Below are positions 3,012 through 48,977 of a DNA stretch of 64,000 nucleotides, piece by piece. Below the pieces are notes generated by a model. It made no database searches. It was given only the letters and a program-made list of their open reading frames with translations, and was not told the DNA's origin. This DNA is from Streptomyces graminofaciens (GTDB taxonomy: Bacteria; Actinomycetota; Actinomycetes; Streptomycetales; Streptomycetaceae). A program made the translations under genes and the position numbers. The stretch covers positions 10,388,501-10,452,500 of the forward strand of contig NZ_AP018448.1 of assembly GCF_030294945.1 (NCBI RefSeq), given 5' to 3'. The number at the start of each line of letters is the position of its first letter. The stretch's first letter is position 1.

Positions 3012-3284
3012 ATGTCCAAGAAGACGTTCGAGGAGCTCTTCACCGAGCTCCAACACAAGGCTGCCAACGGCGATCCCGCCACTTCCCGCACCGCCGAACT
3101 CGTCGGGAAGGGCGTCCATGCCATCGGCAAGAAGGTCGTCGAAGAGGCCGCCGAGGTCTGGATGGCCGCCGAGTACGAGGGCAAGGAAGCGGCCGCCGAG
3201 GAGATCTCGCAGCTGCTCTACCACGTCCAGGTGATGATGGTCGCCCGCGGCATCTCCCTGGACGACGTGTACGCCCACCTCTGA
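3012..3284 (+). CDS. hisE: Phosphoribosyl-ATP diphosphatase
   Basis: A 90-residue all-helical MazG-like protein with the HisE signature [15 protein letters not shown] and the following [14 protein letters not shown]; the E..EE residues bind metal. It removes pyrophosphate from phosphoribosyl-ATP in step two of histidine synthesis. The ATG at 3012 gives the usual family N-terminus ([10 protein letters not shown]) and follows the purine-rich AGGGTGGG. A GTG at 3000 in the same frame would add only four residues. It sits 34 bp after ribH and 47 bp before hisG, so riboflavin and histidine genes may share a transcript. Confidence 0.94.
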
Positions 3285-34615: not shown

Positions 34616-35485
34616 TCAGCGGCGCCGTACCGCCACGAACCGCACCGGAGTCCCAGGCGCGGCCTGGGCCGCGCCCGCCAGGTCCGCCGGGTGGACGACG
34701 GCGATCACCGGATAGCCCCCGGTGGTCGGATGGTCGGCCAGGAAGACGACCGGCCGGCCGTCCGGCGGCACCTGGACGGCACCCAGCACCATGCCCTCGC
34801 TGGGGAGCTCGCCGGGCCGGGCGCGCTCCAGAGCGGGGCCGTCCGTGCGCAGGCCGATGCGGTTGCTCGCGGAGGAGACCGCGTACGGGTGCGTGACGAG
34901 CGTGCGGCGGGCCGCCGCCGTGAACCAGTCGTCACGGGGGCCGAATGTCATGCGCAGAACCAGCTCAGAGGGTGGCGCCGGGTGCGGAACGACGTCCACG
35001 CGCGCGTGTGCCCGCGCAGGCCGTCCCAGGGGCAGCACGGTGCCGTTCGTCAGCGGGGGCGGACCGAGCCCCGACAGCAGGTCGGTGGAGCGGCTGCCCA
35101 GCACCGGCTCGACGGCCACCCCGCCCGAGACGGCCAGATAGCCGCGTACTCCCGCGCGGGCGGCCCCGATGTCCAGCAGAGCCCCTTCGGGGACGCGTAC
35201 GGGTGCTCCCCAGGGGGCCGGGCGGCCGTCCACGGTGACCGGGCAGGGGGCGCCGCCGACGGCCACGACGACCGTCGAACGGGGCCGTACGGAGCAGCCG
35301 TTGAGGGTGGTCTCCAGGACGGCCGCGTCCGGCGGGTTGCCCACCAGGCGGTTGACCAGCGCGGCGGTCGGTGCGTCCAGCGCGCCCGAGCGCGGCACGC
35401 CGAGATGGGCGTATCCGGGGCGGCCGAGATCCTGCACGGTGGTCAGGGCGCCGGCGCGGACGACGACGAGGGCACGGTCGGTCAT
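34616..35485 (-). CDS. pxpC: 5-oxoprolinase subunit PxpC (biotin-dependent carboxylase-like, KipA family)
   Basis: 289 residues. Marks of the AHS2/KipA family: VRAGALTTVQDLGRPGYAHLGVPRSGALD at the start, ALLDIGAARAGVRGYLAVSGGV, and the C-terminal SEGMVLGAVQVPPDGRPVVFLADHPTTGGYPVIAVV, quoted as landmarks. With PxpB it forms the ATP-using 5-oxoprolinase, with PxpA, that opens 5-oxoproline to glutamate. ATG at 35485 overlaps the pxpB stop. Last gene of the pxp operon. Confidence 0.93.
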   Translation of the reverse strand: MTDRALVVVRAGALTTVQDLGRPGYAHLGVPRSGALDAPTAALVNRLVGNPPDAAVLETTLNGCSVRPRSTVVVAVGGAPCPVTVDGRPAPWGAPVRVPEGALLDIGAARAGVRGYLAVSGGVAVEPVLGSRSTDLLSGLGPPPLTNGTVLPLGRPARAHARVDVVPHPAPPSELVLRMTFGPRDDWFTAAARRTLVTHPYAVSSASNRIGLRTDGPALERARPGELPSEGMVLGAVQVPPDGRPVVFLADHPTTGGYPVIAVVHPADLAGAAQAAPGTPVRFVAVRRR

Positions 35486-36093
35486 GCCGCGCCCACCGGG
35501 GTGAAGCGGACTCTGGTGCCCGGCGCCAGCAGAGCCGCGGGCACGCGCGCGTGGTCCCACAGCACCGTGTCCGTCGTACCGATCAGCTGCCAGCCGCCCG
35601 GCGACGAACGCGGGTACACACCCGTGTACGGCCCCGCCAGGGCGACCGAACCCGCCGGGACGGCCGTGCGTGGCGTCGAGCGGCGCGGCACCTCGCGCGG
35701 CAGGCCGGTGAGGTAACCGAAGCCCGGCGCGAAGCCGCAGAAGGCCACCCGGAACTCGGCCGCCGCGTGGATGGCGGCCACCTCCGCCGCGTCGACACCC
35801 CAGTGCGCGGCGACGTCCGCCAGATCCGGGCCGTCGTACCGTACGGGGATCTCGACGACCGCTTTCGCGCGCGCGGGAACCGGCGGAACCTCCCAGGAGG
35901 CGAGCCGGGCGGCGAGGCGGGACGGGGCGTCGAGGCCGTCCAGGAGGACCGTACGGGCCGCGGGGACGATCTCGGCCACGACGAGGTCACCCGCCGCGCG
36001 GCGGCGCAGCAGCTCGGCGTGCAGGGCCTCGGCCTCCTCGCCCGATCCGACCTCGATCAGCAGCGCGCGGTCCCCGACCGGCAGCGCCCTCAT
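35482..36093 (-). CDS. pxpB: 5-oxoprolinase subunit PxpB (KipI family)
   Basis: 203 residues. AHS1/KipI signature: ALPVGDRALLIEVG at the start, VVEIPVRYDGPDLADVA, and FCGFAPGFGYLTGLP followed by VPRRSTPRTAVPAGSVALAGPYTGVYPRSSPGGWQLIG. The homologue in Bacillus also inhibits the sporulation kinase KinA, but the enzymatic role is the general one. Four-base overlaps (ATGA) with both pxpA and pxpC show coupling. Confidence 0.93.
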   Translation of the reverse strand: MRALPVGDRALLIEVGSGEEAEALHAELLRRRAAGDLVVAEIVPAARTVLLDGLDAPSRLAARLASWEVPPVPARAKAVVEIPVRYDGPDLADVAAHWGVDAAEVAAIHAAAEFRVAFCGFAPGFGYLTGLPREVPRRSTPRTAVPAGSVALAGPYTGVYPRSSPGGWQLIGTTDTVLWDHARVPAALLAPGTRVRFTPVGAA

Positions 36094-36848
36094 ACGAAGG
36101 CCTCCACGCGCACCCCCGAGGACTCCAGCCCGCCGCGCACCCGCCTGGCCAGTTCCACGGCGCCCGGTGTGTCGCCGTGCAGGCACAGGGAGCGGGCGCG
36201 GACGGGAATGCGCTCCCCGGAGTGGGAGGCGACCGTGCCGGAGCGGGCGAGGTCCACCGACCGCTCGACCACGGCGTCCGCGTCGGTGATCACGGCACCG
36301 TCCTGACCGCGCGGCACCAGCGTGCCCTGCTCGGTGTACGCACGGTCCGCGAACGCCTCCGTGACGGCCGGCAGCCCGGCCCGTTCGGCCACCTTCAGCA
36401 AGCGCGAGCCGGGCAGGCCGAGCACGGGCAGCGTGGCGTCGGCGAGGACGACGCCGTCCACCACGGCCGCCGCCTGCTCCTCGTCGTGCACGACACGGTT
36501 GTAGAGCGCGCCGTGCGGCTTCACGTACGACACGCGCGTGCCGGCCGCACGCGCGAAGACCTCCAGGGCACCGATCTGGTACGCCACCTCGGCCGCCAGT
36601 TCGGCGGGCGGCACGTCCATCGCGCGCCGCCCGAACCCCGCCAGATCCCGGTACGAGACCTGGGCACCGATCCGCACGCCGCGCTCGGCCGCCAGCTCGC
36701 ACACCCGCCGCATGGTGACCGCGTCCCCGGCGTGGAAGCCGCAGGCCACGTTGGCGCTGGTGACGACGGACAGCAGCCGCTCGTCGTCGGTCAGCCGCCA
36801 GCGGCCGAAACCCTCGCCGAGGTCGGCGTTGAGATCGATGGAGATCAT
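36090..36848 (-). CDS. pxpA: 5-oxoprolinase subunit PxpA (LamB/YcsF family)
   Basis: 252 residues. YcsF-family marks: IDLNADLGEGFGRW at the start, VTSANVACGFHAGDAVTMRR, GAQVSYRDLAGFGRR, VKPHGALYN and RSLCLHGDTPGAVELARRV. It is the catalytic partner of PxpBC in 5-oxoproline hydrolysis. The start was placed at 36848 (MISIDLN); an ATG at 36857 is nearly on top of AGGAGA and is less likely. Confidence 0.93.
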   Translation of the reverse strand: MISIDLNADLGEGFGRWRLTDDERLLSVVTSANVACGFHAGDAVTMRRVCELAAERGVRIGAQVSYRDLAGFGRRAMDVPPAELAAEVAYQIGALEVFARAAGTRVSYVKPHGALYNRVVHDEEQAAAVVDGVVLADATLPVLGLPGSRLLKVAERAGLPAVTEAFADRAYTEQGTLVPRGQDGAVITDADAVVERSVDLARSGTVASHSGERIPVRARSLCLHGDTPGAVELARRVRGGLESSGVRVEAFV

Positions 36849-36888
36849 GGCTCCCATTCTCCTGGTCGGTTCCTGCTGGTCTCGCCGC

Positions 36889-37716
36889 TCAGAGCACGCG
36901 GTACTGGTCGTCGCGGACGTCGGTGAGGAACATCTGGCCCGGTGCGTGGGTGATCGCGAACGGCGGGCGCGAGGCCATCACCGCGGCCTGGGGCGTGACC
37001 CCGCAGGCCCAGAACACCGGGATGTCGTCCGGCTCGGCGGCCACGGGGTCGCCGAAGTCCGGGCGGGACAGGTCCGCGATGCCGAGGCCCGTCCCCTCGC
37101 CGCAGTGCACCGGGCCGCCGTGCACCGCCGGGAGCAGACTGCTCTCCCGGATCGCGGCCTCCAGATGCTCGGGTGGCACCGGCCGCATCGACACCACCAT
37201 CGGCCCGCGCACCCGCCCGGCGGGGCGGCACTGCCGGTTGGTGACGTACATGGAGACGTTGCGGCCCTGCTCGATGTGACGCATCGGGACGCCCGCCCGG
37301 GTGAGCGCAGACTCGAAGGTGAAGCTGCACCCGATGAGGAACGACACCAGGTCCTCGCGCCAGACGTCGACCACGTCCGTGGGCTCGGCCACCAGCTCAC
37401 CGTGCTCCCACACCCGGTAGCGCGGCAGATCGGTGCGCAGGTCCGCGCCCCCCGCGAGCGGGGTCGTCCAGGAGCCGGCGTCCGTGACGTCCAGCACCGG
37501 GCAGGGCTTCGGATTGCGCTGGCAGAACAGCAGCATGTCGTACGCCCAGTCGGCCGGGACCGCGATCAGGTTCGCCTGGGTGTGCCCGGCGGCGACCCCG
37601 GCGGTGGGGCCCGAGACGCCCGAACGGAACTCGGCGCGGGCCTTTTCGGGGGTCCACGCGTGCGCGTGCGGCTCGACGAGGGTCAGTGCGCGGTCCTCAG
37701 CGGTGCTCCGGTTCAC
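36889..37716 (-). CDS. DUF1445 / YcsI-family putative hydro-lyase
   Basis: 275 residues from a GTG with AAAGGAA upstream. Family marks: [40 protein letters not shown] and [22 protein letters not shown], then [13 protein letters not shown] near the end. Annotated in databases as putative hydro-lyase; related to one domain of mammalian D-glutamate cyclase, which makes 5-oxo-D-proline. In B. subtilis ycsI sits in the same kind of cluster with pxpABC. The start overlaps the MFS stop by four bases (GTGA). Confidence 0.85.
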
Positions 37717-39032
37717 ACCAGTTCCTTTCCACGGGTCTCGGGGAGTCCGAGCAGCGCCACCGCCGCCAGGGCGTAGCCGATCGCGCCGAAGACCAGCGCG
37801 CCGCCCACGCCCCAGCTGTCGGCCAGGAAACCGACCGTGGTGGGGAAGGCGGCGCCCACGGCACGCCCGGTGTTGTACGTGAAGCCCTGCCCGGTGCCGC
37901 GCACGGCCGAGGGGTACAACTCGCTCAGATAGGAACCGAAGCCGCTGAAGATCGCCGACATACAGAAACCGAGCGGGAAGCCGAGCACGAGGAGGAGGGT
38001 GTCGGCGCCGCTCGGGATGTTCGCGTACGCCAGGATGCACACCGCCGAAAGGACCGCGAAGAGCCAGATGTTCCGCCTGCGGCCCAGCCGGTCGGTGAGA
38101 TAGCCGCCGGTGAGGTAGCCGCCGAAGGCGCCGGAGATCAGGAACGTGAGGTAGCCGCCGGTGCCGACGACCGACAGTCCGCGTTCGGTCTTGAGGTAGG
38201 TGGGCACCCAGGTGGCCAGTGTGTAGTAGCCGCCCTGGACGCCGGTCGAGAGCAGCACCGCGAACAGTGTCGTGCGCAGCAGACCGGGAGCGGTGGGCGT
38301 GCCCCGCCGGAAGATCGCGGCGAACGAGCCCTTCTCGGCACTCTTCTCCCGCGCGGCCGCGGCCTCGGGTGCGTCCTCGACCGAGCGGCGCACCCAGATG
38401 ACGAGCAGCGCGGGCAGCGCGCCGGTCCAGAACATCACGCGCCAGGCGAGGTCGTCGTCCAGCAGGGAGAAGACCGTGGTGTAGACGATCACGGCCAGTC
38501 CCCAGCCGACGGCCCAGGAGCTCTGGATCGCGCCGAGCGTACGCCCCCGGTGCTTGGCGCTCGCGTACTCGGCGACCAGGATCGCGCCGACCGCCCACTC
38601 ACCGCCGAAGCCCAGCCCCTGGAGGGCCCGGAAGACCAGCAGGGTCTCGTAGTTGGGCGCGAAGCCGCAGGCCACGGTGAAGACCGCGTATGTGATCACG
38701 GTGATCATCAGCGCCTTCACGCGCCCGATCCGGTCCGCGAGCACGCCCGCGACAGCGCCGCCGATCGCGGAGACGACCAGGGTGACCGTGGTGAACAGGC
38801 CGGTCTGGCCGTTGTCCAGGCCGAAGTAGGCCGTGAGCGCGACCATGCTCAGCGGCAGCGTGAAGTAGTCGTAGGAGTCGAGGGCGTAGCCGCCGAACGC
38901 GCCGGCGAAGGCGCGGCGGCCCCGCGGGCCGAGCGCGCGCAGCCAGCCGAACGCGCCGCCGTCTGCGGTCGGTTCGTCGGGGCCGGGGAGAGGGGTGGTC
39001 GTCGGCACCTGGGACGAAGGGGTCGTGCTCAT
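37713..39032 (-). CDS. MFS transporter of the metabolite:proton symporter type
   Basis: 439 residues, twelve helices. The loop 2-3 motif [14 protein letters not shown] and the second repeat's [15 protein letters not shown] are classic; [23 protein letters not shown] is the helix 4-5 motif of the aromatic acid/sialate symporter group. First gene of an operon with DUF1445 and pxpABC, so an uptake role for 5-oxoproline or a related acid is likely by context. In Bacillus the corresponding slot holds an Nramp-type transporter. GAGG lies six bases before the ATG. Confidence 0.88.
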
Positions 39033-39140
39033 GGGCACCTCGCAATGAGGGACGGAGGGTGCGTGAGGGACTGATCCGTGCTGAGCCGTGCGGAAGTACG
39101 GGCGCCGGAGAAGGGGTCGAACGCGCGGCGCCTGCCCAGC

Positions 39141-39170
39141 AAGGTAGAGGATCGTTGAACGATCCCTCAA
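39141..39170 (-). promoter_or_regulatory. Promoter of the MFS-DUF1445-pxpABC operon with palindromic operator in the spacer
   Basis: On the minus strand, TTGAGG (39170-39165), 18 bp, TACCTT (39146-39141). The spacer is almost filled by the perfect palindrome GGATCGTTGAACGATCC (39149-39165). FadR-type GntR regulators typically bind short palindromes of this kind. The regulator gene starts 50 bp to the right, divergently, so it probably represses the operon and itself. Confidence 0.75.
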
Positions 39171-39214
39171 TACCCGTGTTGTTTCGTTCTTGTCTCTGCG
39201 GTTGAATTCCGGGC

Positions 39215-39910
39215 ATGGCCGCCGAACTGACGGGACTTGCAGACGACCGGGCCCTCCTGGGGCGCACCAGCACCGCCGAACGGGTTTCGGACATCCTCCG
39301 GAGCCGGATCGCCGAGGGCTTCTTCCCACCGGGGACACGGCTGTCCGAGGACAGCATCGGCGGCGCCCTCGGTGTCTCCCGCAACACCCTCCGCGAGGCG
39401 TTCCGCCTGCTCACCCACGAACGGCTGCTCGTGCACGAGCTGAACCGCGGGGTCTTCGTCCGGGTGCTGACCGTCGAGGACGTCGAGGACATCTACCGCA
39501 CCCGCCGGCTCGTCGAGTGCGCCGTCGTACGCGGGCTCGGCGCGCCGCCCTACGACGTCGACGGGCTCGCCGACGCCGTCGCCGAAGGGCAGCGGGCGGC
39601 GCGGCAGGGTGACTGGAAAGGGGTGTCCACCGCCAACATCCACTTCCACCGCGAACTGGTCGCCCTCGCCGGCAGCGCCCGCACCGACGAACTGATGCGC
39701 AGCGTCTTCGCCGAGCTGCGGCTCGCGTTCCACGTCGTGGACAATCCGCGCAAGCTGTACGAGCCGTATCTGGCGCGAAACGTACTGATCCTCGAGACCC
39801 TTCGGGCGGGTGAGCACGAGGAGGCCGAGCGGATGCTGGCGGCGTACCTCGACGACTCGCTGCGGGGGTTGGTCGAGGTGTACGGGCGAAGGGTGGCCGA
39901 GGCGCTGTGA
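39215..39910 (+). CDS. FadR-type GntR regulator (GntR-FCD)
   Basis: 231 residues. N-terminal winged helix (about 22-85: ERVSDILRSRIAEGFFPPGTRLSED, GVSRNTLREAFRLLTHERLLVHE) and C-terminal FCD helical domain (about 95-215) with NIHFHRELVALAGS and the metal-ligand-type histidines. Such regulators sense small organic acids. It is divergent from the MFS-DUF1445-pxpABC operon with the palindrome at 39149-39165 between them. There is no good Shine-Dalgarno, so translation may be leaderless. Confidence 0.88.
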   Translation: MAAELTGLADDRALLGRTSTAERVSDILRSRIAEGFFPPGTRLSEDSIGGALGVSRNTLREAFRLLTHERLLVHELNRGVFVRVLTVEDVEDIYRTRRLVECAVVRGLGAPPYDVDGLADAVAEGQRAARQGDWKGVSTANIHFHRELVALAGSARTDELMRSVFAELRLAFHVVDNPRKLYEPYLARNVLILETLRAGEHEEAERMLAAYLDDSLRGLVEVYGRRVAEAL

Positions 39911-40087
39911 CGTGACCGGTCGCTCCTGCTGAGAGTGGGCGTTCATGGTGCGAGCAGGCCGTTCACGGTGCTCGCGCGTGGTTCACGGTGCGAGCGGTCG
40001 TTCCCGGCCTCGGCCGGGTGGCCCGCCGGGCCTTTGCCGGTGGAACGATTTGGGTCGTTGTCAGACCCAGGACCTAGTCTGTGCACC

Positions 40088-41611
40088 GTGACTTCACCCG
40101 CATCGACGGACAGTGTTCCGCCCCAGCTCAGCGCGGGGCCGCGCCCCGCTCCGGGCCCGGCCGCCGACGAGGGACTGGCGCGGCGGCTGCGCGCGCTCGC
40201 CTGCACCGCGCCGCTGCACGACCTGGACGCGCGCAAGGCGAACCTCGCGGGTGAGTACACGGTCTACGGCATGGCCGAGGTCGCTCTCGCCGCCATCGAC
40301 CTGGTCACACTGAACATGGACTTCGACACGGGCGCGGACCACGACCAGATCGTCGCCCGGCTCATCCCGCGCATCGCCGCCCAGGCCCCGCAGCGGCCCG
40401 TCGCCGAGCACGAGCGGGTGGCCCGCTGGGTCCTGGAGAACCTGATCAACGTCGGCAGCGTCGACCGTGGCTTCCGGGCCGTGTACGGCACGTTCGCACC
40501 CGACGGCACGTATGTGCGCCGTGACTACGACTTCAAGCTGCTCGAAGAGGTCCCCGGGTACGGCGGCGGGGTCTACCTCCGTACGACCGACGAGGCCGTC
40601 AACGTCCTCGTGGGCGCCCTCGACACCGATGTCACCAGCGCCCAGATCGCCGCCGAGGTCAAGCTGGAGGTGCTGATCAACCGAGGCCGCCTCGCCGACG
40701 CCCAGCTCGCCGCCGAGCAGGCGCGATACCGCACGGTGCAGTACTCGGAGACGCTCAGGAAGGCCCTGGACGCCACGCGGCGCAATGTCCGCGCGGTCGA
40801 CTGGCTCCAGGCCGTGCCCGACATGATCGCCGAGGCCCTCGACCACGTAGCCGACCGGTACCGCCACGAGAACGCGATCCTCACCAACATCCGCAAGGCC
40901 CGCGACGAGTCCGAGGACCCCGAGCAGAAGCGGCGCGCCGCGGAGCTGGTCGACATCGTCAAGGACTGCATCCGGCGACACACCCAGCTCCAGTCCCGAC
41001 TGCTCGAGGCCGGACCGCTGTTCCGCGCCGAGCAGGACCGGCAGGCCTTCGCCACCCCCATGACGACCTCGGGGATCGACCTCTACGGACACCTGGTCGC
41101 GCCGCTGCTGCCGCTGCCCATGGAGCAGGCGAGGCGGGTGACCGACGCGTTCTTCGCCCGGGGGACCGGGCTGCGTACGCCGGTGTCCGTGCGGGTGGGG
41201 GACCTTGTCGACCTGCTGTTCACGCCGCCGGTGGAGCGGGAGCACCTGGGGGCGGAGATGCCGGAGCCGGACCTGATCGCCACGCCGGACGACAGCCGGT
41301 TCAGCGAGGAGCAGTTGGCCGCCGCGAAGGAACTGCTCGATCTGCCCGCGGACGCGCCGCGGCGGTTGTCGGGGTTGTTGGCGGAGGCGCGCCGCTCGGA
41401 TCCCGAATTGCCTTATCTGGTCGCCCTGTTGGCTGTTCATGCGGCCAGTCCGCCGGTCGGTACGGCTTATCGGCAGGGGGAGGAGAAGCTGTTGTTCTCC
41501 GTGGACGACGGGACGGTGTTGGACGATCCGGAGTTCGGTGGCGCCGATTTGATCGTGGGGACGGCTCTGCTGGACGCGGTGGGAATGGCTGCGGACAGGG
41601 AAGCGGCATGA
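40088..41611 (+). CDS. Kleisin-like protein of an SMC complex (MukF/JetA-like)
   Basis: 507 residues from a GTG. Mostly helical, no signal or membrane segment. An N-terminal winged-helix-like region (LARRLRALACTAPLHDLDARKANLAGEYTVYGMAEVALAAIDLV) is followed by a helix-rich middle. The long amphipathic stretch VKLEVLINRGRLADAQLAAEQARYRTVQYSETLRKALDATRRNV and the RRHTQLQSRLLEAGPLFRAEQDRQAF segment match the MukF/JetA middle domain in style. A C-terminal wing follows (VGDLVDLLFTPPVERE, LPADAPRRLSGLLAEARR). First gene of a trio with a KITE-like protein and an SMC-like ATPase. The Shine-Dalgarno is poor (AGGA about 14 bases away). Assignment rests on context and fold-like pattern; sequence similarity is not measured. 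Confidence 0.65.
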   Translation: MTSPASTDSVPPQLSAGPRPAPGPAADEGLARRLRALACTAPLHDLDARKANLAGEYTVYGMAEVALAAIDLVTLNMDFDTGADHDQIVARLIPRIAAQAPQRPVAEHERVARWVLENLINVGSVDRGFRAVYGTFAPDGTYVRRDYDFKLLEEVPGYGGGVYLRTTDEAVNVLVGALDTDVTSAQIAAEVKLEVLINRGRLADAQLAAEQARYRTVQYSETLRKALDATRRNVRAVDWLQAVPDMIAEALDHVADRYRHENAILTNIRKARDESEDPEQKRRAAELVDIVKDCIRRHTQLQSRLLEAGPLFRAEQDRQAFATPMTTSGIDLYGHLVAPLLPLPMEQARRVTDAFFARGTGLRTPVSVRVGDLVDLLFTPPVEREHLGAEMPEPDLIATPDDSRFSEEQLAAAKELLDLPADAPRRLSGLLAEARRSDPELPYLVALLAVHAASPPVGTAYRQGEEKLLFSVDDGTVLDDPEFGGADLIVGTALLDAVGMAADREAA

Positions 41612-41702
41612 GAGCGCCGGTCGACCTTAGGCCGTCGTTCGTGTGCGGACCGTCTGTGGCTGATCGCGCACACGCGGCGGAGCCGCACATGCCATGGCCC
41701 CG

Positions 41703-41718
41703 CGCCCCTGAAGGGGCG
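41703..41718 (+). terminator. GC-rich hairpin between the kleisin-like and KITE-like genes
   Basis: CGCCCC (41703-41708) pairs with GGGGCG (41713-41718) around TGAA. It is the core of the same Streptomyces hairpin family as 7368-7399. Inside the 148-bp gap of an otherwise single-direction trio, it may partially terminate and set a lower level of the downstream two genes. Confidence 0.45.
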
Positions 41719-41759
41719 GCTGCACTTGACCCCTGTCACGAGATCAAGGAGTTTTCGCC

Positions 41760-42641
41760 GTGAGCGAGCACGTCGAGTGGAGTGAGCCGGAGGCCGTCGC
41801 CGCGCCGGCGGCTGCCGCCCCCCTCACGCCCGCCGACGCCGCCGATGCCGCTCGGCTCGTCGCGTTCGGGCTTCAGCCCAAGTTGCAGCCCGCCCGTGAT
41901 CAGGAGTACGGCGAGTTGCTGCGACGGTACCGGGAGGACTCGGCGTTCGCCCGGCTCGCCGATGCCGTGGCCGCCGGTCTCGGGCTGGTCGTGATGGAGG
42001 TGTCCCCGCGCGCCGGCATGGCGGTGACGGCCGCCGAGGACTCGGTGTTCGCCGTACGCATGGGGGACTACGCGCGGCGGACCTCGGCCGATTCGGTCGA
42101 CCGGTTCCTGCACGGGCTCGCCCATCTCGCGGTCGCCGCCATGGCGTTCCCCCGGCCCGAGGACCTCGCGGACGACGGGTACATCGGGCGGGTCTCGGTC
42201 AACGGCGTCGACGCCTTCGTACGGCAGGCCTGCCGACGGCTGGAGGAGCGGGCCGAGGAACAGGGAGAGAACACCGACCCGGCGAGCGACGCGCCCGGAC
42301 TGGAGGCTGCCTGGCGGATCTGGGCGAGACGCAGTTCGACCGGGGCCACCAAGGACGCGCGCCGGCTGGCCGGGTCCACCACCGGCATCGTCGGCAAGGC
42401 GGTGGCCTTCCTCACCGACTCGGGTTTCCTGCAGCGCACGGGTGACGACAACGGCGGTACGTATCGCACGACCGCCCGCTATCAGCTCCAGGTGCGTGAC
42501 ATGGCGGGCAGTGCCGCGATGGCCGAGCTGCTGGAGCTGGGGATCGTCCCGGTGACCGACGGCACCGCCACACTGCTGCCCGCAGAGGACACCGACGATC
42601 TGGAGCTGGTGTCCGACGCCGGGCTGCCGTTCCACTCCTGA
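41760..42641 (+). CDS. KITE/MukE-like winged-helix subunit of the SMC complex (JetB-like)
   Basis: 293 residues from a GTG with AAGGAG at ideal distance. N-terminal Ala-rich linker, then helical and winged-helix pattern: DAARLVAFGLQPKLQPARDQEYGELLRRYREDSAFARLADAVAAGLGLVVMEVSPRAGMAV (residues about 27-90). A second winged-helix pattern follows, GSTTGIVGKAVAFLTDSGFLQRTGDDNGGTYRTTARYQLQVRDM (about 205-250), including a beta-wing. Two winged helices in a small acidic protein between kleisin and SMC genes are the hallmark of KITE subunits. The SMC-like gene starts 78 bp downstream. Confidence 0.65.
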   Translation: MSEHVEWSEPEAVAAPAAAAPLTPADAADAARLVAFGLQPKLQPARDQEYGELLRRYREDSAFARLADAVAAGLGLVVMEVSPRAGMAVTAAEDSVFAVRMGDYARRTSADSVDRFLHGLAHLAVAAMAFPRPEDLADDGYIGRVSVNGVDAFVRQACRRLEERAEEQGENTDPASDAPGLEAAWRIWARRSSTGATKDARRLAGSTTGIVGKAVAFLTDSGFLQRTGDDNGGTYRTTARYQLQVRDMAGSAAMAELLELGIVPVTDGTATLLPAEDTDDLELVSDAGLPFHS

Positions 42642-42719
42642 TCGCCCCTCCCGGATCCCCGAACCCGACCACCCCGACCACCGACCGCACCACCGTCACG
42701 ACCGCGAAAGTCCGCCGCC

Positions 42720-45700
42720 ATGTACGAGCTGTCCCGGGTCCGCCTCTACTCCATCGGGCCGGCCGGTGCGCGCTACGCCGACACCGTGCTGGACCTGCGG
42801 GGTGTGGGCGACATCGTGCCCGACCCCGCGCCCCAGCAGGCGGAGTTCTTCGAGGAGGAGCCCACCGGGCCGCCGCGCCGGCCGGCGCCCGCCGGTGTGC
42901 TCTTCCTGGAGAACGGCGGCGGCAAGTCGGTCCTGCTCAAGCTGATCTTCTCGGTGATGCTCCCCGGCCACCGGAACACGCTGGGCGGTGCCAGCTCCGG
43001 TGTGCTGCGGAAGTTCCTGCTCGCCGACGACTGCGGGCATGTGGCGCTTGAGTGGCAGCACACGCTCACCGGCGAGTGCGTGGTCGTGGGCAAGGCGAGC
43101 GAGTGGCGGGGGAGGCAGGTCTCCAACGACCCCAGGAAGTTCGCCGAGGCCTGGTACTCGTTCCGGCCCGGGCCGGGCCTGAGTCTCGACAACCTCCCCG
43201 TCGCCGAGTCCACCGCCGTACGGCCGCCCGTCGAGGGCGCCTCCGGCGCGCAGGGGCGGCGGCGGACCATGAAGGGCTTCCGGGACGCCATCACCGAGGC
43301 AGGCAAGGCGTATCCGCACCTCGACGTGCACTGGGAGGAGGGCCACGACCGCTGGAACGAACATCTGACGGATCTCGGCCTCGACCCGGAACTCTTCCGC
43401 TACCAGCGGGAGATGAACGCCGACGAGGGTGAGGCGGCCGGTCTCTTCGCGGTGAAGAAGGACTCCGACTTCACCGACCTGTTGCTGCGCGCCGTGACCG
43501 ATACACGCGACACCGACGGGCTCGCCGACCTGGTCGGCGGCTTCGGCAACAAGCTGGGGCGACGGGCCGAGCTGATCGCCGAACGGGACTTCACCGCCGG
43601 GTCCGTGGATCTGCTCGGGCGGATCGTCGAGGCCGCCGAGGGGCGCTCTCGCGCACGGGACGTGCACGCGAGCGCCGAGCGGCGGACCCGCACGCTGGCG
43701 CGGCGGCTGTCGGCGCGGGCCGCGCGGGAGCGGCTGCGGGGCACCGACCTCGCCCAACGGGTCACCGCCGCCGCGTACGCGGTCACGCACACCGAGTCCG
43801 CCCGCGACCGCGGCTCGCTGATCGCGGCCGAACTCGCCTACCGGCACGCCTCGTTGGCGCTGGCCGCCGCCGAGAAGTCGGCCGCCGCGCAGAAGCGGGA
43901 GCTGGCCGACGCGCGCACGCTGCACTCCGCCTGGCAGGCCGCCGAGGCCGTGCTCAGGCACCGGGCCGCCGCCGACCGGGTCGCCCGCGTGGCCGCCGCG
44001 ATCCAGGAGGCCGAGCGGGACGCGGCCCCGGCGCTCGCCGCCCGCGCCAAGGCCGCCGTCGACCTCGTACGGGCGCTGCAGAGCGCGGCCCAGAGCGCCG
44101 AGGACCTGGCGAACGAAGGGGAAGAGCGCTCCGCCGAGCTGCAGGCGGTCGGTGAGGCCGCACACCGGGACGCGACGGCCGCCGCCACGCAGGCGCAGCG
44201 GGCCCGTAGTGAGGTCGGGCATCTGCGGCAGCGACTCAGCGAGGTCGAGCAGGAGACCGCGGAAGCCGTGCGCGCGGGCTGGCTCGACGACAGCGCGCCC
44301 GACGCCGACCCGGCGCGGGCCGCCCTCGCCGCCAGCGACGCCGAGAAGACCGCTGTCGCCGCGTGGGACACCGCGCGCGAGGCCTCCCGCCGGGCCTCCG
44401 AACACGCCCGGGAGGCGGCCTCCGCCGAGTCCCGCGCGGAACTGACGGCCGCCCGCGCGGCGGACGCGGCCATCGCCGCCGAGCGAGCGTACGACGGGGA
44501 GCGGCGCACGGCCGAGGCCCTGGCCGGGGAGGAGCGGCTCGTCGAGCTGCTGGGCCTCGGCGCCAAGGGCGGAGCACACAAGGTGGTTCCGCAGCCTCGG
44601 CGTGACGGCGGCGCCACGGCGGAGAGCGGTGCACAGGGCGACGAAGGAGGCCCGCTCACTCCCGAGGAGCTGGACCGTTTCGCCGACGAGTTGCGCGAGC
44701 TGCTCGACGAGAACGTGGCCTCCGCCGAGCGGCATCTCTTCGAGCTGCGCACCGCCGCGGCCGACGACTCCCGCATCCTCGGCGCCCTCGGCGACGGCGG
44801 GCTGCTGCCGCCCGGCCCCGATGTGCTGGCCACCGTCGAGTACCTCGGCGAGCACGGCATCCCGGCCCTGCCCGGCTGGCGGTATCTCGCCCAGGCCGTG
44901 GATCCCGCCGACCACGCGCGTGTACTGGCCGCCCGCCCCGAGCTGGTCGACGGCGTGATCATCACCGACCCGGACTCGTACCTCCGGGCCCGCGAGGCGC
45001 TCGGCGACGCTGCCCTGCTCCCGCGGTCCGCCGTGGCTGTCGGCACGGCCGCCGCGCTGCTCGCCCCGCCTCCGGCGGCCGACGCGAGCAACAGTGACGT
45101 CTTCCTCGTACCGCCGAACCCGGCCATGCACGACGAACACGCCGCCGACGAGGAGCGGCAGGCGCTGCGCGCGCGGGCCACCGAGCGGGACGAGGAGATC
45201 CGGGCGCTCGCCGCCCGGCTCGGCAAGGACCGGGAGCTGGCGGCCCGGCTCGCCGCGTGGCGCACGGGCTGTCCGGCGGGGCGGCTCATCGAGCTGGCGA
45301 CCGCAGCCCAGGAGGCGCGCGCCTTCGCCGAGGAGGCCGAGGCGGAGCTGGCGGAGGCACGGACCGTGCGCACCGAAACCGAGGAGACGTCGGCCGAGGC
45401 GGCCCAGGTGCGCGACGAGCGGCAGGAGGCCGCGCAGAAGGCCCGCCGCGCCGCCGACGCGCTCGCCGGACTCGCCTTCCGGCTGCGCGAGCGGGCCGGC
45501 TGGCAGGTCAAGGTCCGTGAACTCGCCGACGAGGCCACGGAGTCCGAGGCCCGCGCCCAGGCCTGTCTGGAGCGCGCCCGCGCCGCCGACGAGGACCGGC
45601 GGGCCGCCCAGCGCGGCGCCGACGACGCCCGCCGCACGGCGCGTGCGCTGCGCGCCGAGCGCGCGGAGATCGCGGGTGCCCCCGACGACGTACCGGAGGA

Positions 45701-47366
45701 CGCCGCCGACACGCCCAGGCACCCCCTCGCCGCACTCCGCGAGGCCTACCGGGCCGCTTCCCAGGTGTACGAGAAGGTCGGCGTCGACGCCGACCTGCGC
45801 GCCGAGCAGGCCCGGGCCGAGAGCGACGAGAGCGCCGCCATCGCCGAGCTGGACCGGCTGACCAACAAGGTCCGCAACCGCGCCGAGCAGCTGCTGCAGT
45901 CACCCGACGGCTCCGACGGGCCGTCCCGGCAGGCCGCGGCCGCCCGTGCCGAGGAGCTGGTCCAGCTCCTCGAAACCCGGGTGTCCACCGCGAGCGAGCA
46001 GCTCGGGCGGCTGCGCGGCGAGGCCGAGCGGCACGCCCCCGAGGACGGCGAGGCACACACCGAGCTGCCCGAGGAACTGCTCCCGCGCGACGCCGAGCAC
46101 GCCCAGGCACTGCTGCGCACCGCCACCGCCGAACTGGCCTCCCGCACCGAGGCGTTGACCCAGGCCCGCGAGGCCCACGCCGAACTGCTGGACGCCCACC
46201 GCGCCGCCGAGGACGCGGCCGGCGGCTTCGACGAGACCGCCGCCCTGCTCCGGGACCTCCTCCGCGACCACACCGCGGACGACGAGCAGGAAGAGCCCGA
46301 GCCCTACCCCGGCGGCCTCGAAGAGGCCCGCAAGGCCGCAGCCGAGGCCCGCCGCTCCCTGCGCGGCTGCGCCGCCGACCTGTCCGCCGCCGACGGCGCC
46401 GTACGCGAGGCCAGTGACGTCCTCGTACGGCACGCCAACTCCACGCGCTACGAGCAGGTGCGCACGCCCGCCCGGCAGCAGATCCGGGAGCTGCCCGCGT
46501 CCTCGCTGCCCGAGCACGCGCAGAAGTGGGCGGAGGCCTTCGCGCCCAGGCTCCGGGTCCTGACCGACGAGCTGGCTCAGCTGGAGCGCAACCGCGACTC
46601 GATCGTGGACCGGCTGCGGGGCCTCGTGGAGTCGTCCCTCGCCACCCTGCGGTCCGCCCAGCGGCTGTCCCGGCTGCCCGAAGGGCTCGGCGAGTGGTCC
46701 GGGCAGGAGTTCCTGCGCATCCGCTTCGAGGAGCCCGACCAGGCCACACTCGGCGAACGGCTCGGCGAGGTGGTCGACGAGGCGACCCGCGCGGCCGTGA
46801 AGAAGAACTCCGACATGCGCCGCGACGGCATGTCCCTGCTGCTGAGGGGCGTGAGCGCGGCGCTCGAGCCGAAGGGCGTGGCCGTCGAGATCCTCAAGCC
46901 CGACGCCGTACTGCGCGCCGAGCGCGTGCCCGTCGGCCAGATGGGCGACGTCTTCTCGGGCGGCCAGCTGCTCACCGCCGCCATCGCCCTCTACTGCACG
47001 ATGGCCGCGCTGCGCAGCAACGACCGGGGCCGGGACAAGCACAGGCACGCCGGCACACTGTTCCTCGACAACCCCATCGGCCGCGCCAACGCGACCTACC
47101 TGCTGGAGCTCCAGCGGGCCGTGTCGGACGCGCTGGGCGTCCAGCTCCTCTACACCACCGGCCTGTTCGACACGACGGCGCTGGCGGAGTTCCCGCTGGT
47201 CATCCGCCTGCGCAACGACGCCGACCTCAGAGCGGGCCTGAAGTACATCAGCGTGGAGGAACACCTCCGCCCGGGACTGCCGCAGCAGCCCCAGGCGGGG
47301 GAGGCGGTGCACAGCGAGATCACGGCGACACGGATGTTCAAACGGCCCGCTTCGGCGAGCAGTTGA
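42720..47366 (+). CDS. SMC-type coiled-coil ATPase (MukB/JetC-like)
   Basis: 1548 residues, near MukB in size. The N-terminal ATPase lobe has the Walker A motif ENGGGKSVLL with Lys69. Long Ala/Glu/Arg-rich heptad regions run from about 270 to 620 and 810 to 1360. A globular insert at about 625-800 (GLLPPGPDVLATVEYLGEHGIPALPGWRYL..) stands where a hinge would be. The C-terminal lobe carries the ABC signature FSGGQLLTAAIALYCTMAALR (Ser1413) and Walker B TLFLDNPIGRAN with Asp1450. The next residue is Asn1451, whereas ABC ATPases normally have the catalytic glutamate. A possible D-loop/H-loop region follows (QLLYTTGLFDTTALAEFP). Probably a DNA-organising or plasmid-defence motor with the two upstream products. 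RNA-level coupling is uncertain (78-bp gap, weak Shine-Dalgarno). Confidence 0.85.
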   Translation: MYELSRVRLYSIGPAGARYADTVLDLRGVGDIVPDPAPQQAEFFEEEPTGPPRRPAPAGVLFLENGGGKSVLLKLIFSVMLPGHRNTLGGASSGVLRKFLLADDCGHVALEWQHTLTGECVVVGKASEWRGRQVSNDPRKFAEAWYSFRPGPGLSLDNLPVAESTAVRPPVEGASGAQGRRRTMKGFRDAITEAGKAYPHLDVHWEEGHDRWNEHLTDLGLDPELFRYQREMNADEGEAAGLFAVKKDSDFTDLLLRAVTDTRDTDGLADLVGGFGNKLGRRAELIAERDFTAGSVDLLGRIVEAAEGRSRARDVHASAERRTRTLARRLSARAARERLRGTDLAQRVTAAAYAVTHTESARDRGSLIAAELAYRHASLALAAAEKSAAAQKRELADARTLHSAWQAAEAVLRHRAAADRVARVAAAIQEAERDAAPALAARAKAAVDLVRALQSAAQSAEDLANEGEERSAELQAVGEAAHRDATAAATQAQRARSEVGHLRQRLSEVEQETAEAVRAGWLDDSAPDADPARAALAASDAEKTAVAAWDTAREASRRASEHAREAASAESRAELTAARAADAAIAAERAYDGERRTAEALAGEERLVELLGLGAKGGAHKVVPQPRRDGGATAESGAQGDEGGPLTPEELDRFADELRELLDENVASAERHLFELRTAAADDSRILGALGDGGLLPPGPDVLATVEYLGEHGIPALPGWRYLAQAVDPADHARVLAARPELVDGVIITDPDSYLRAREALGDAALLPRSAVAVGTAAALLAPPPAADASNSDVFLVPPNPAMHDEHAADEERQALRARATERDEEIRALAARLGKDRELAARLAAWRTGCPAGRLIELATAAQEARAFAEEAEAELAEARTVRTETEETSAEAAQVRDERQEAAQKARRAADALAGLAFRLRERAGWQVKVRELADEATESEARAQACLERARAADEDRRAAQRGADDARRTARALRAERAEIAGAPDDVPEDAADTPRHPLAALREAYRAASQVYEKVGVDADLRAEQARAESDESAAIAELDRLTNKVRNRAEQLLQSPDGSDGPSRQAAAARAEELVQLLETRVSTASEQLGRLRGEAERHAPEDGEAHTELPEELLPRDAEHAQALLRTATAELASRTEALTQAREAHAELLDAHRAAEDAAGGFDETAALLRDLLRDHTADDEQEEPEPYPGGLEEARKAAAEARRSLRGCAADLSAADGAVREASDVLVRHANSTRYEQVRTPARQQIRELPASSLPEHAQKWAEAFAPRLRVLTDELAQLERNRDSIVDRLRGLVESSLATLRSAQRLSRLPEGLGEWSGQEFLRIRFEEPDQATLGERLGEVVDEATRAAVKKNSDMRRDGMSLLLRGVSAALEPKGVAVEILKPDAVLRAERVPVGQMGDVFSGGQLLTAAIALYCTMAALRSNDRGRDKHRHAGTLFLDNPIGRANATYLLELQRAVSDALGVQLLYTTGLFDTTALAEFPLVIRLRNDADLRAGLKYISVEEHLRPGLPQQPQAGEAVHSEITATRMFKRPASASS

Positions 47367-48977
47367 TCAGCTGCCGTCCTTCAACAGGTCCGCGCACTTC
47401 TCGCCGATCATCATCGTCGTGATGCACGGATTGACGGTGACGAGGTCCGGCATGACCGACCCGTCCGCGACCCTCAGACCCTCGACCCCCTTGACCCGCA
47501 GCCGTGCGTCGAGCGGGGCCGAGGGGTCGTCGTCCGCGCCCATCTTCACGGTGCAGGCCGGGTGGTAGACGGTGTTGTGCGTCTTGCGGATGTAGTCGAG
47601 CAGTTCGTCGTCCGACCGGACGTCCGGCCCGGGGGCCAGCTCGGCGCCCGCCCAGCCGCTCAGCGCGGGCTGCGCGGCAATACGACGGGCCAGCTTCAAG
47701 CCGTACGTCATCACCCGCACATCGTGCTCGTGCGTGAAGTAGCGCGGGTCGACCCTAGGCTTGTCCCGGTAGTCGCGGGTACGCAACCGCACCGTCCCCC
47801 GCGACTTCGCCCGCGTCACGTTCGGCGTGAGGCAGAACGCGTTCTCGGACGTGGGATAACCGTGCCGGGCCGTGTTCATGTCGAACGGCACCGACCCGTA
47901 GTGGAACATCAGGTCGGGCCGGTCCAGACCCGGCTCGGTGTCGTAGAAGATGCCCGCCTCCCACCACTGGCTGGACGTGGTGGTCATCGGCTGCGCGGCC
48001 TCCCACATGACGACGCCCTCGGGGTGGTCCTGGAGGTTCTCGCCGACGCCCGCCGAGTCGACGACGACCTCGACCCCGACCTCGCGCAGGTGTTCGCCCG
48101 GCCCGATGCCCGACAGCATCAGCAGTTTCGGTGAGTCGATCGCGCCGCAGGACACGACGACCTCGCGCCGCGCCCGGACCGTACGGGTGTGGATGAGGTC
48201 CGGGTCCAGATACTCGGCGCCGACGCACCGCCGCCCCTCCAGCACCAGCTTCTTCGCCCGTACGCCCGTGCGTACGACCAGGTTCGGCCGCTTGTCCATG
48301 ACCGGGTGGAGGTACGCCACCGAGGACGACTGCCGGATGTTGTTCTCGTCGGAGTTGATCTGGAACCAGTTCGCACCCCGGACCACGGTCGTACCGGTGT
48401 TGAAGTCGGCGGTCGGAATACCCGCCTGCGCGCACGCCTCCAGCAGCGCGGTCCCGCACGGGTCCTCGCCCTTCAGCGTGCGCAGCCTCACCGGGCCGGA
48501 ACGGCCGTGGTGGTCGCCCGGGGCGTCGTTGTTCTCCAGCCTCCGGTACAGCGGGAACAGGTCGGCCGCGCTCCAGCCCGCGCAGCCGGCCGCCGCCCAG
48601 TCGTCCAGGTCCTCCGCCGGTGCCCAGAAGGCGATGCAGGAGTTGTGGGACGAACAGCCGCCCAGGACCTTCGCCCTCGCGTGCCGCATGAAGCTGTTGC
48701 CGCCGGACTGCGGCTCGACCGGGTAGTCCCAGTCGTAGCCGGACTCCAGCAGACCCATCCAGCGCTCCAGTTTCAGCACGTCGTCGTCACCGACGTCGCT
48801 GGGTCCCGCCTCCAGTACGCAGACCGTGACCGATGGATCCTCGGAGAGACGGGCCGCGACCACATTGCCGGCGGTGCCGCCGCCGACCACGACGTAGTCG
48901 AACTCTTCTGCGTTCGTCGGGGCGTTCGTCGAGGCTTCCATCGGGGTGTTCATCGGGGTGTTCACGGAGACGTTCAT
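47367..48977 (-). CDS. GMC-family oxidoreductase (choline dehydrogenase-like)
   Basis: 536 residues. N-terminal FAD Rossmann motif YVVVGGGTAGNVVAARLSE, GMC signature 1 GGCSSHNSCIAFWAP, signature 2 SCGAIDSPKLLMLSGIGPGEHL and C-terminal active-site His region NTVYHPACTVKMG, with VNPCITTMMIGEKCADLL at the end. The family oxidises alcohols to aldehydes. With the permease and aldehyde dehydrogenase on the same strand this looks like choline to glycine betaine conversion. AGGAGGT stands ideally before the ATG at 48977; in-frame ATGs within the repeated N-terminus are alternatives. Confidence 0.9.
   Translation of the reverse strand: MNVSVNTPMNTPMEASTNAPTNAEEFDYVVVGGGTAGNVVAARLSEDPSVTVCVLEAGPSDVGDDDVLKLERWMGLLESGYDWDYPVEPQSGGNSFMRHARAKVLGGCSSHNSCIAFWAPAEDLDDWAAAGCAGWSAADLFPLYRRLENNDAPGDHHGRSGPVRLRTLKGEDPCGTALLEACAQAGIPTADFNTGTTVVRGANWFQINSDENNIRQSSSVAYLHPVMDKRPNLVVRTGVRAKKLVLEGRRCVGAEYLDPDLIHTRTVRARREVVVSCGAIDSPKLLMLSGIGPGEHLREVGVEVVVDSAGVGENLQDHPEGVVMWEAAQPMTTTSSQWWEAGIFYDTEPGLDRPDLMFHYGSVPFDMNTARHGYPTSENAFCLTPNVTRAKSRGTVRLRTRDYRDKPRVDPRYFTHEHDVRVMTYGLKLARRIAAQPALSGWAGAELAPGPDVRSDDELLDYIRKTHNTVYHPACTVKMGADDDPSAPLDARLRVKGVEGLRVADGSVMPDLVTVNPCITTMMIGEKCADLLKDGS
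48912..48977. repeat. Degenerate 12-bp tandem repeat encoding the N-terminus of the GMC oxidoreductase
   Basis: Six units of GTTCRTCGGGGY-like sequence run from 48912 to the start codon at 48977. On the coding strand they give a four-residue period (NTPM, NTPM, EAST, NAPT, NAEE). The array precedes the FAD domain and probably encodes a disordered N-terminal tail, expandable by slippage. Confidence 0.75.

Follow-up and report, generated by a model that had tools for sequence, protein, structure and literature searches.

The 64,000-nucleotide stretch of Streptomyces graminofaciens DNA analyzed here (NCBI RefSeq assembly GCF_030294945.1, contig NZ_AP018448.1; hereafter the window) carries a plus-strand jetABC gene set homologous to Wadjet type III systems. 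No jetD nuclease gene adjoins the set, which is present in almost all sampled genomes of Streptomycetaceae and is preceded in Streptomyces by a conserved promoter element. We consider it somewhat better than an even proposition that jetABC encodes a Wadjet III-derived, nuclease-free complex of a structural maintenance of chromosomes (SMC) protein, a kleisin, and a KITE subunit, and that this complex is core to Streptomycetaceae, induced by DNA damage, and engaged in handling the chromosome beside canonical Smc. The genome is a single contig of 11.6 Mb in which the window spans C1:10388501-10452500, and 1.2 Mb separate the set from a chromosome end. Its features are as follows, in window positions.

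40088..41611, plus strand: jetA (GTG start, 507 amino acids [aa]), JetA3, presumed MukF/JetA-type kleisin, probably leaderless
41760..42641, plus strand: jetB (GTG start, 293 aa), presumed KITE subunit
42720..47366, plus strand: jetC (ATG start, 1548 aa), SMC-type ATPase
40058..40080, plus strand: TTGTCAG-N10-TAGTCT, RecA-NDp/PafBC-class promoter element, with the -10 hexamer at 40075-40080, 7 nt before the jetA GTG
42909..42929, plus strand: Walker A of jetC, ENGGGKS (aa 64-70)
46956..46964, plus strand: ABC signature of jetC, the SGG of FSGGQ (aa 1413-1415)
47055..47075, plus strand: Walker B of jetC, TLFLDNP (aa 1446-1452), with Asn following the Walker B Asp
39215..39910, plus strand: GntR/FCD regulator upstream of jetA, a conserved neighbor (73/80 loci)
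47367..48977, minus strand: GMC oxidoreductase, its stop codon adjoining that of jetC, where jetD would be (12/80 loci)

A Wadjet III-type gene set without an adjacent jetD

A first-pass annotation had described three plus-strand genes encoding 507, 293, and 1548 aa in the jetABC order, and both the open reading frames (ORFs) and their order are borne out. The outer products match the PADLOC profiles JetA3 (PDLC00567, 617 bits, E 7.4e-186, aa 24-505) and JetC3 (PDLC00588, 1399 bits, E 0), and the middle product is a JetB homolog, sharing 49% identity with its positional counterpart in a JetABCD operon of this genome. None of the three products has a Pfam or NCBIfam match above cut-offs, and JetB has no significant match among Pfam, NCBIfam, or PADLOC profiles, leaving the profile check that the annotation had proposed positive for the two outer genes only. 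The AlphaFold model of JetA (predicted local distance difference test score [pLDDT], 70.8) is in keeping with a kleisin of the MukF/JetA type, consistent with the fold suggested earlier for this gene; profile searches with JetA and JetB against PDB sequences returned nothing below E 1. The jetA ORF as listed opens further upstream, at 39935, and the start at 40088 is backed by the promoter, with 7 nt separating the -10 hexamer from this start codon.

The ATPase motifs of JetC are intact and widely shared, with FLENGGGKS in 98 and FSGGQ in all of 100 core JetC sequences. SMC proteins usually have a catalytic Glu after the Walker B Asp; the Asn at this position (LFLDNP) is common to type III JetC proteins with and without JetD, including the paralog in the same genome. 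The earlier remark that the SMC protein exceeds the usual JetC length holds in part: its 1548 aa compare with 1451 to 1486 positions in the matched type III profiles, and the median aligned length is 1545 aa in the core set versus 1479 aa in JetD-paired relatives. The three genes also stay together, contrary to the possibility that the SMC gene travels without its partners, as jetA, jetB, and jetC are present in 78, 79, and 80 of 80 named loci, respectively. The best 80 named JetC relatives comprise 79 with Streptomyces titles and one titled "Actinobacteria bacterium," and the source names of the best 120 listed JetA and JetB homologs are only hypothetical, uncharacterized, DUF3375, membrane protein, or similar.

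No jetD adjoins the window set, which is flanked, as the annotation had noted, by the GntR/FCD regulator and the minus-strand GMC oxidoreductase. JetD is likewise lacking in all 80 named core loci; one contig stops 0.7 kb past jetC (L043), and the others continue for at least 2.9 kb. We sampled 121 Streptomyces genomes evenly, including the source genome, and found JetD_C matches in 16 and JetD3 matches in 19, for a union of 20; the remaining 101 match neither model. By-eye comparison of coordinates in these genomes placed every JetD_C or JetD3 match more than 20 kb from any core copy or on a different contig. Each of the 12 strong type III JetD sites, found in 11/121 genomes, has a divergent JetA (25 to 52% identity) no more than 10 kb away, and the JetD3 matches in 14 of 121 genomes of the Streptomycetaceae sample are likewise never close to a core copy. 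Fetched loci typed by profile divide in the same way: JetD adjoins JetA in 26/26 uncut divergent loci, one of them in the source genome, and was found in neither the 19 core loci from other Streptomycetaceae genera nor the 11 loci of a further family, f20, two of the latter being cut off upstream of or within jetC. Where f20 loci run past jetC, the ORF lists show the next genes to be mostly convergent. A contig break inside jetC splits one divergent locus (L101/L102), and two others end too early to tell (L104 and L137). Another locus, L124 (G193:C1:1233000-1251000), is an apparent Wadjet III relic with jetD and only a piece of jetC. Because JetD, the defining component, was not found with the window set, we do not file the set as Wadjet.

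The genome-wide JetD search proposed by the annotation yielded one JetD_C match in the source genome (C1:5975100), within a complete minus-strand Wadjet III operon encoding JetA (508 aa), JetB (272 aa), JetC (1490 aa), and JetD (382 aa; JetD3, E 1.6e-123). This operon is 4.4 Mb away from the window set, with which it shares 53% (JetA), 49% (JetB), and 37% (JetC) identity. Judged by these identities, the window set is a paralog of the JetABCD operon, and a single genome thus contrasts the system with and without its nuclease.

The window set resembles Wadjet III in its JetA3 and JetC3 profiles, gene order, ATPase motifs, and identity to the paralogous operon (37 to 53%) but differs in having no JetD, in being core rather than patchy, in the lower ratio of nonsynonymous to synonymous substitution rates (dN/dS) of jetA and jetC, and in the fixed promoter spacing in Streptomyces. 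As in MksBEF of Pseudomonas and in MukBEF, a kleisin gene, a middle gene, and an SMC gene form a nuclease-less three-gene operon; the likeness of the JetA model to MukF is one of fold only and concerns JetA only. Unlike those systems, the window set is actinobacterial, falls outside their families by its lack of Pfam and NCBIfam matches, and would represent a separate loss within type III. MksBEFG/EptABCD of Corynebacterium and Mycobacterium is also an actinobacterial SMC system beside canonical Smc, which the source genome has, but those systems are reported to possess the MksG/JetD nuclease and to act against plasmids (PMC10123090, PMC10586767). Among the papers listed by our searches of the open-licence PubMed Central (PMC) literature, we found none on this Streptomyces complex or tying Wadjet to RecA-NDp/PafBC, and no Wadjet-related member of the RecA-NDp/PafBC regulon.

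Distribution, phylogeny, and selection

The genus, family, and order samples overlap in genomes. JetA with at least 80% identity is present in 118/121 Streptomyces genomes (80 to 95% outside the source genome). The three genomes without it are 82% complete (G050), 78% complete (G079), and 98% complete in 1140 contigs (G073). All 132 Streptomyces genomes of the order-level sample have JetA (82 to 96% identity), and only 2 of 15 genomes from other families match it at all (33% and 45%). Core JetA extends to 119 of 121 genomes and 16 of 17 genera in the Streptomycetaceae sample (74 to 94% outside the source genome), the exceptions being the single genome of genus g10, which has a 26% identical copy beside JetD (L103), and one genome without any copy (G188). 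In a class-level sample of 246 genomes, JetA at 60 to 63% identity appears in one further family, f20, in 11 genomes; a search of that family matched JetA in 19/35 genomes. The class search scored at most six candidates per genome, and weaker JetA copies may therefore be missed there. Among 72,556 plasmid records, five match JetA, all below 60% identity, and the best of these, from Rhodococcus, has an adjoining JetD. JetC had no match among 50,697 phage records. Two genomes have matches near both chromosome ends, as if in terminal inverted repeats: equal-score JetA copies in G090 and equal-score JetD_C matches in G049.

We built quick JetA and JetC trees, rooted by us on JetD carriers, for which the program warned of meeting long branches. 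The Streptomycetaceae core forms one clade nested among JetD carriers (Shimodaira-Hasegawa-like approximate likelihood ratio test [SH-aLRT] support of 98 for JetA and 100 for JetC), and the lack of JetD therefore looks derived. The core follows taxa in the tree. In a first JetA tree, in which 13 of the 81 Streptomyces loci were represented and one locus without JetA (L069) and one with a short sequence (L097) were omitted, the Streptomycetaceae core and f20 grouped in one clade (SH-aLRT, 95). This support fell to 57 once Pseudonocardiaceae and other homologs of unknown JetD status were added, in enlarged trees that omit eight long-branched rows (L091-L094, L103, L136, L137, and L144). The JetC tree, built from 41 chosen rows (18 JetD-carrying, 7 f20, 9 from other genera, and 7 Streptomyces), needs two changes for jetD loss, with one not rejected. 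So rooted, the trees indicate that jetD was lost once or twice, and the simpler proposal of one single loss is weakened by the drop from 95 to 57 and by the JetC tree. Amycolatopsis, Prauserella, Saccharomonospora, and others, genera that we take to belong to Pseudonocardiaceae, have JetA homologs about 59 to 66% identical to that of the window, on short branches. These homologs possibly represent another core, JetD-less lineage; if JetD-less, its grouping with the other JetD-less lineages is not rejected (approximately unbiased test, P = 0.081).

Codon comparisons indicate that the core genes are under purifying selection. By a simple Nei-Gojobori count over non-independent pairs with dS of 0.2 to 0.8 (3046 to 3225 pairs per gene), median core dN/dS is 0.096 for jetA, 0.103 for jetB, and 0.152 for jetC. 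Close JetD-paired relatives give 0.114 to 0.185 for jetA (12 pairs) and 0.258 to 0.33 for jetC (7 pairs), with dS of 0.05 to 1.0 and dN below 0.2, pairs chosen after wider ones proved saturated. Median identity over loci is 93, 90, and 88% for jetA, jetB, and jetC versus 84% for the neighboring GntR gene.

Among the neighbors, the GMC oxidoreductase is ruled out as a functional fourth gene by its presence in only 12/80 loci. Upstream of the GntR gene, the minus strand of the window (35482-39338) encodes a carboxyltransferase C/D domain protein, a D-glutamate cyclase, and an MFS transporter, the latter two kept in 65/80 and 69/80 loci, respectively; these genes might form an oxoproline- or lactam-use cluster next to the regulator.

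A conserved promoter element upstream of jetA

The region between the GntR gene and jetA is unconserved across 75 sequences except for its last ~40 bp, which hold the element. We take it to fit the RecA-NDp promoter, whose consensus was reportedly described by Gamulin et al. in 2004. The form TGTCRG-N10-TANNNT occurs in 79/79 readable core upstream regions from 81 Streptomyces loci, 52 of them with a leading TT, and the -10 hexamer lies 7 nt from the GTG in 77/78, a spacing that argues for a leaderless mRNA. This form, the loosest one, is matched 11 times on the two strands of the first 0.8 Mb of the genome, and its presence before any given jetA should therefore seldom arise by chance. The form with the leading TT (TT form) occurs once in the window, at jetA, against 0.02 expected, and at least 64 of its 66 occurrences in 5.86 Mb of collected loci (both strands) are jetA promoters.

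In 1.6 Mb of the source genome, the TT form has seven matches at a spacing of 10 versus a total of two at 14 other spacings. Two of the seven precede recA, 168 nt apart, with the closer one 7 nt upstream of the earliest potential start codon, and their sequence and spacing match those at jetA. The others precede a YoaA/DinG helicase gene (9 nt), an intein-bearing thyX (21 nt), a SWIM protein gene (6 nt), and, doubtfully, eccE (21 nt), and one has no ORF. The intein that interrupts thyX (C1 ~4371557-4373227 for the whole gene) carries an HNH endonuclease domain. A looser form, TGTCRGTG, has 13 matches, of which five precede repair genes: the two at recA and one each at yoaA/dinG, pcrA (9 nt), and recD2 (6 nt). 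No element was found within ~500 nt before smc.

RecA-NDp promoters are reported upstream of recA and SCO6735 in Streptomyces coelicolor, the latter gene being UV inducible (PMC5087735; see also PMC9411070), and mycobacterial PafBC is reported to activate such promoters (PMC8223512, PMC6789036, PMC11804915). A jetABC set under this promoter class should therefore be made, or made more, after DNA damage.

Defense or chromosome maintenance

A near-universal, nuclease-less complex behind a DNA-damage-type switch suggests a turn from defense to genome care. A Wadjet III ancestor would have shed its JetD and been passed on vertically as a core complex of Streptomycetaceae. Driven by a RecA-NDp (PafBC-class) promoter that probably yields a leaderless mRNA, jetABC would supply two JetC-JetA-JetB units that load on DNA and extrude or hold loops with ATP, as Wadjet JetABC does short of cutting. 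Such loops could hold a damaged or unresolved chromosome in a compact, tethered state in which it can still be segregated while repair proceeds. The chromosome-organizing option of the first-pass annotation gains from the conservation across genus and family, the taxon-following tree, the purifying selection, and the damage-class promoter, and its role on the chromosome stays putative. In a bolder form, which we put forward tentatively and hold at somewhat below even, Streptomycetaceae would have turned a Wadjet III system into a damage-induced, nuclease-free bacterial counterpart of Smc5/6, acting on the chromosome beside Smc-ScpAB within a PafBC-type, RecA-independent regulon.

In this account, gene content, the lack of an adjacent JetD, distribution, homology, and promoter conservation are observed, and damage induction, PafBC as the regulator, loop extrusion, and a role in repair or segregation are deduced. 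Several observations weigh against it. The JetB model is of low confidence (pLDDT, 43), and the middle gene is a KITE subunit by positional homology only. The dN/dS of jetB overlaps between JetD-paired pairs (0.066 to 0.228, 13 pairs) and the core (0.103). The element is missing from 6/19 loci of other Streptomycetaceae genera (13/19 have it) and from all 11 loci of the JetD-less family f20, and it is present at 10/27 JetD-carrying Wadjet III loci (L088, L089, L090, L092, L095, L099, L100, L101, L142, and L143). Damage control may therefore be ancestral and not by itself a sign of repair, and full Wadjet III may be DNA damage controlled too. Only three of the seven TT-form sites and five of the 13 looser sites precede repair genes, the rest of the latter including phoH (58 nt), rimO (7 nt), and ORFs that carry no assignment. 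For Streptomyces venezuelae, an initial motif search is reported to have suggested a lack of conservation of the PafBC motif known from mycobacteria, and a RecA/LexA-independent damage response there is said to remain to be shown (PMC9380542).

The main rival, to which we assign a real but clearly minor share of probability, is that the complex still serves defense: it would topologically capture and silence small circular or invading DNA without a nuclease, in the manner of Smc5/6, or hand such DNA over to a general nuclease, with the promoter sensing invasion. The close homology to Wadjet III and the promoter class shared with those 10 JetD-carrying loci fit this idea, as does the position 1.2 Mb from the chromosome end, since Wadjet systems are reported to show enrichment in Actinobacteria and near the ends of Streptomyces chromosomes (PMC10482375, whose main text never uses the word JetD). 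What speaks against it is that the core copies are near universal, taxon following, and slowly evolving, in contrast to the patchy JetD-carrying copies, and that no plasmid record reaches 60% JetA identity.

Less probable still, and in our judgment rather unlikely, is a general condensin of the mycelial or sporulating life cycle beside Smc, with the element a variant housekeeping promoter free of damage control. Core status across the family and the precedent of Pseudomonas aeruginosa MksBEF would suit a condensin. Under this explanation, one would not expect the spacing from TGTCRG to the -10 hexamer to be the same as at recA, pcrA, and recD2, the near absence of other TT spacings in 1.6 Mb, or the missing element before smc.

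The annotation had also raised defense with a remote effector. A remote JetD does exist in the source genome, in the complete operon 4.4 Mb away, and could be borrowed in trans there; this operon leaves other genomes unexplained. As a general effector, we reject a remote JetD as unlikely, because 101/121 Streptomyces genomes match neither JetD model and 118/121 have core jetA. The strong type III JetD genes adjoin their own divergent JetA, and the JetC proteins of the two operons are only 37% identical, making borrowing very improbable. Decay is ruled out by purifying selection and intact ATPase motifs: although the nuclease gene is missing, a Wadjet relic is scarcely credible with dN/dS of 0.10 to 0.15 and jetC in 80/80 loci, and a true relic resembles L124, with its jetD and piece of jetC.

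If the preferred reading of a damage-induced, chromosome-handling complex is correct, it also carries a warning for defense-system counts, since those satisfied by JetA3 and JetC3 together would score almost all Streptomyces as having Wadjet. The parental JetABCD still resides in some of the same genomes, which makes a direct comparison possible, and the promoter makes both a PafBC-type damage response in Streptomyces and the role of a non-cutting, Wadjet-derived SMC complex testable. In the bolder form, the promoter shared with recA, pcrA, and recD2 would mean that Streptomyces has a PafBC-type, RecA-independent damage regulon. Under the preferred reading, almost every Streptomyces genome would contain a second, overlooked SMC complex, annotated as hypothetical proteins, and Wadjet III would provide a further case of a plasmid-cutting immune machine turned to genome maintenance by the loss of its nuclease.

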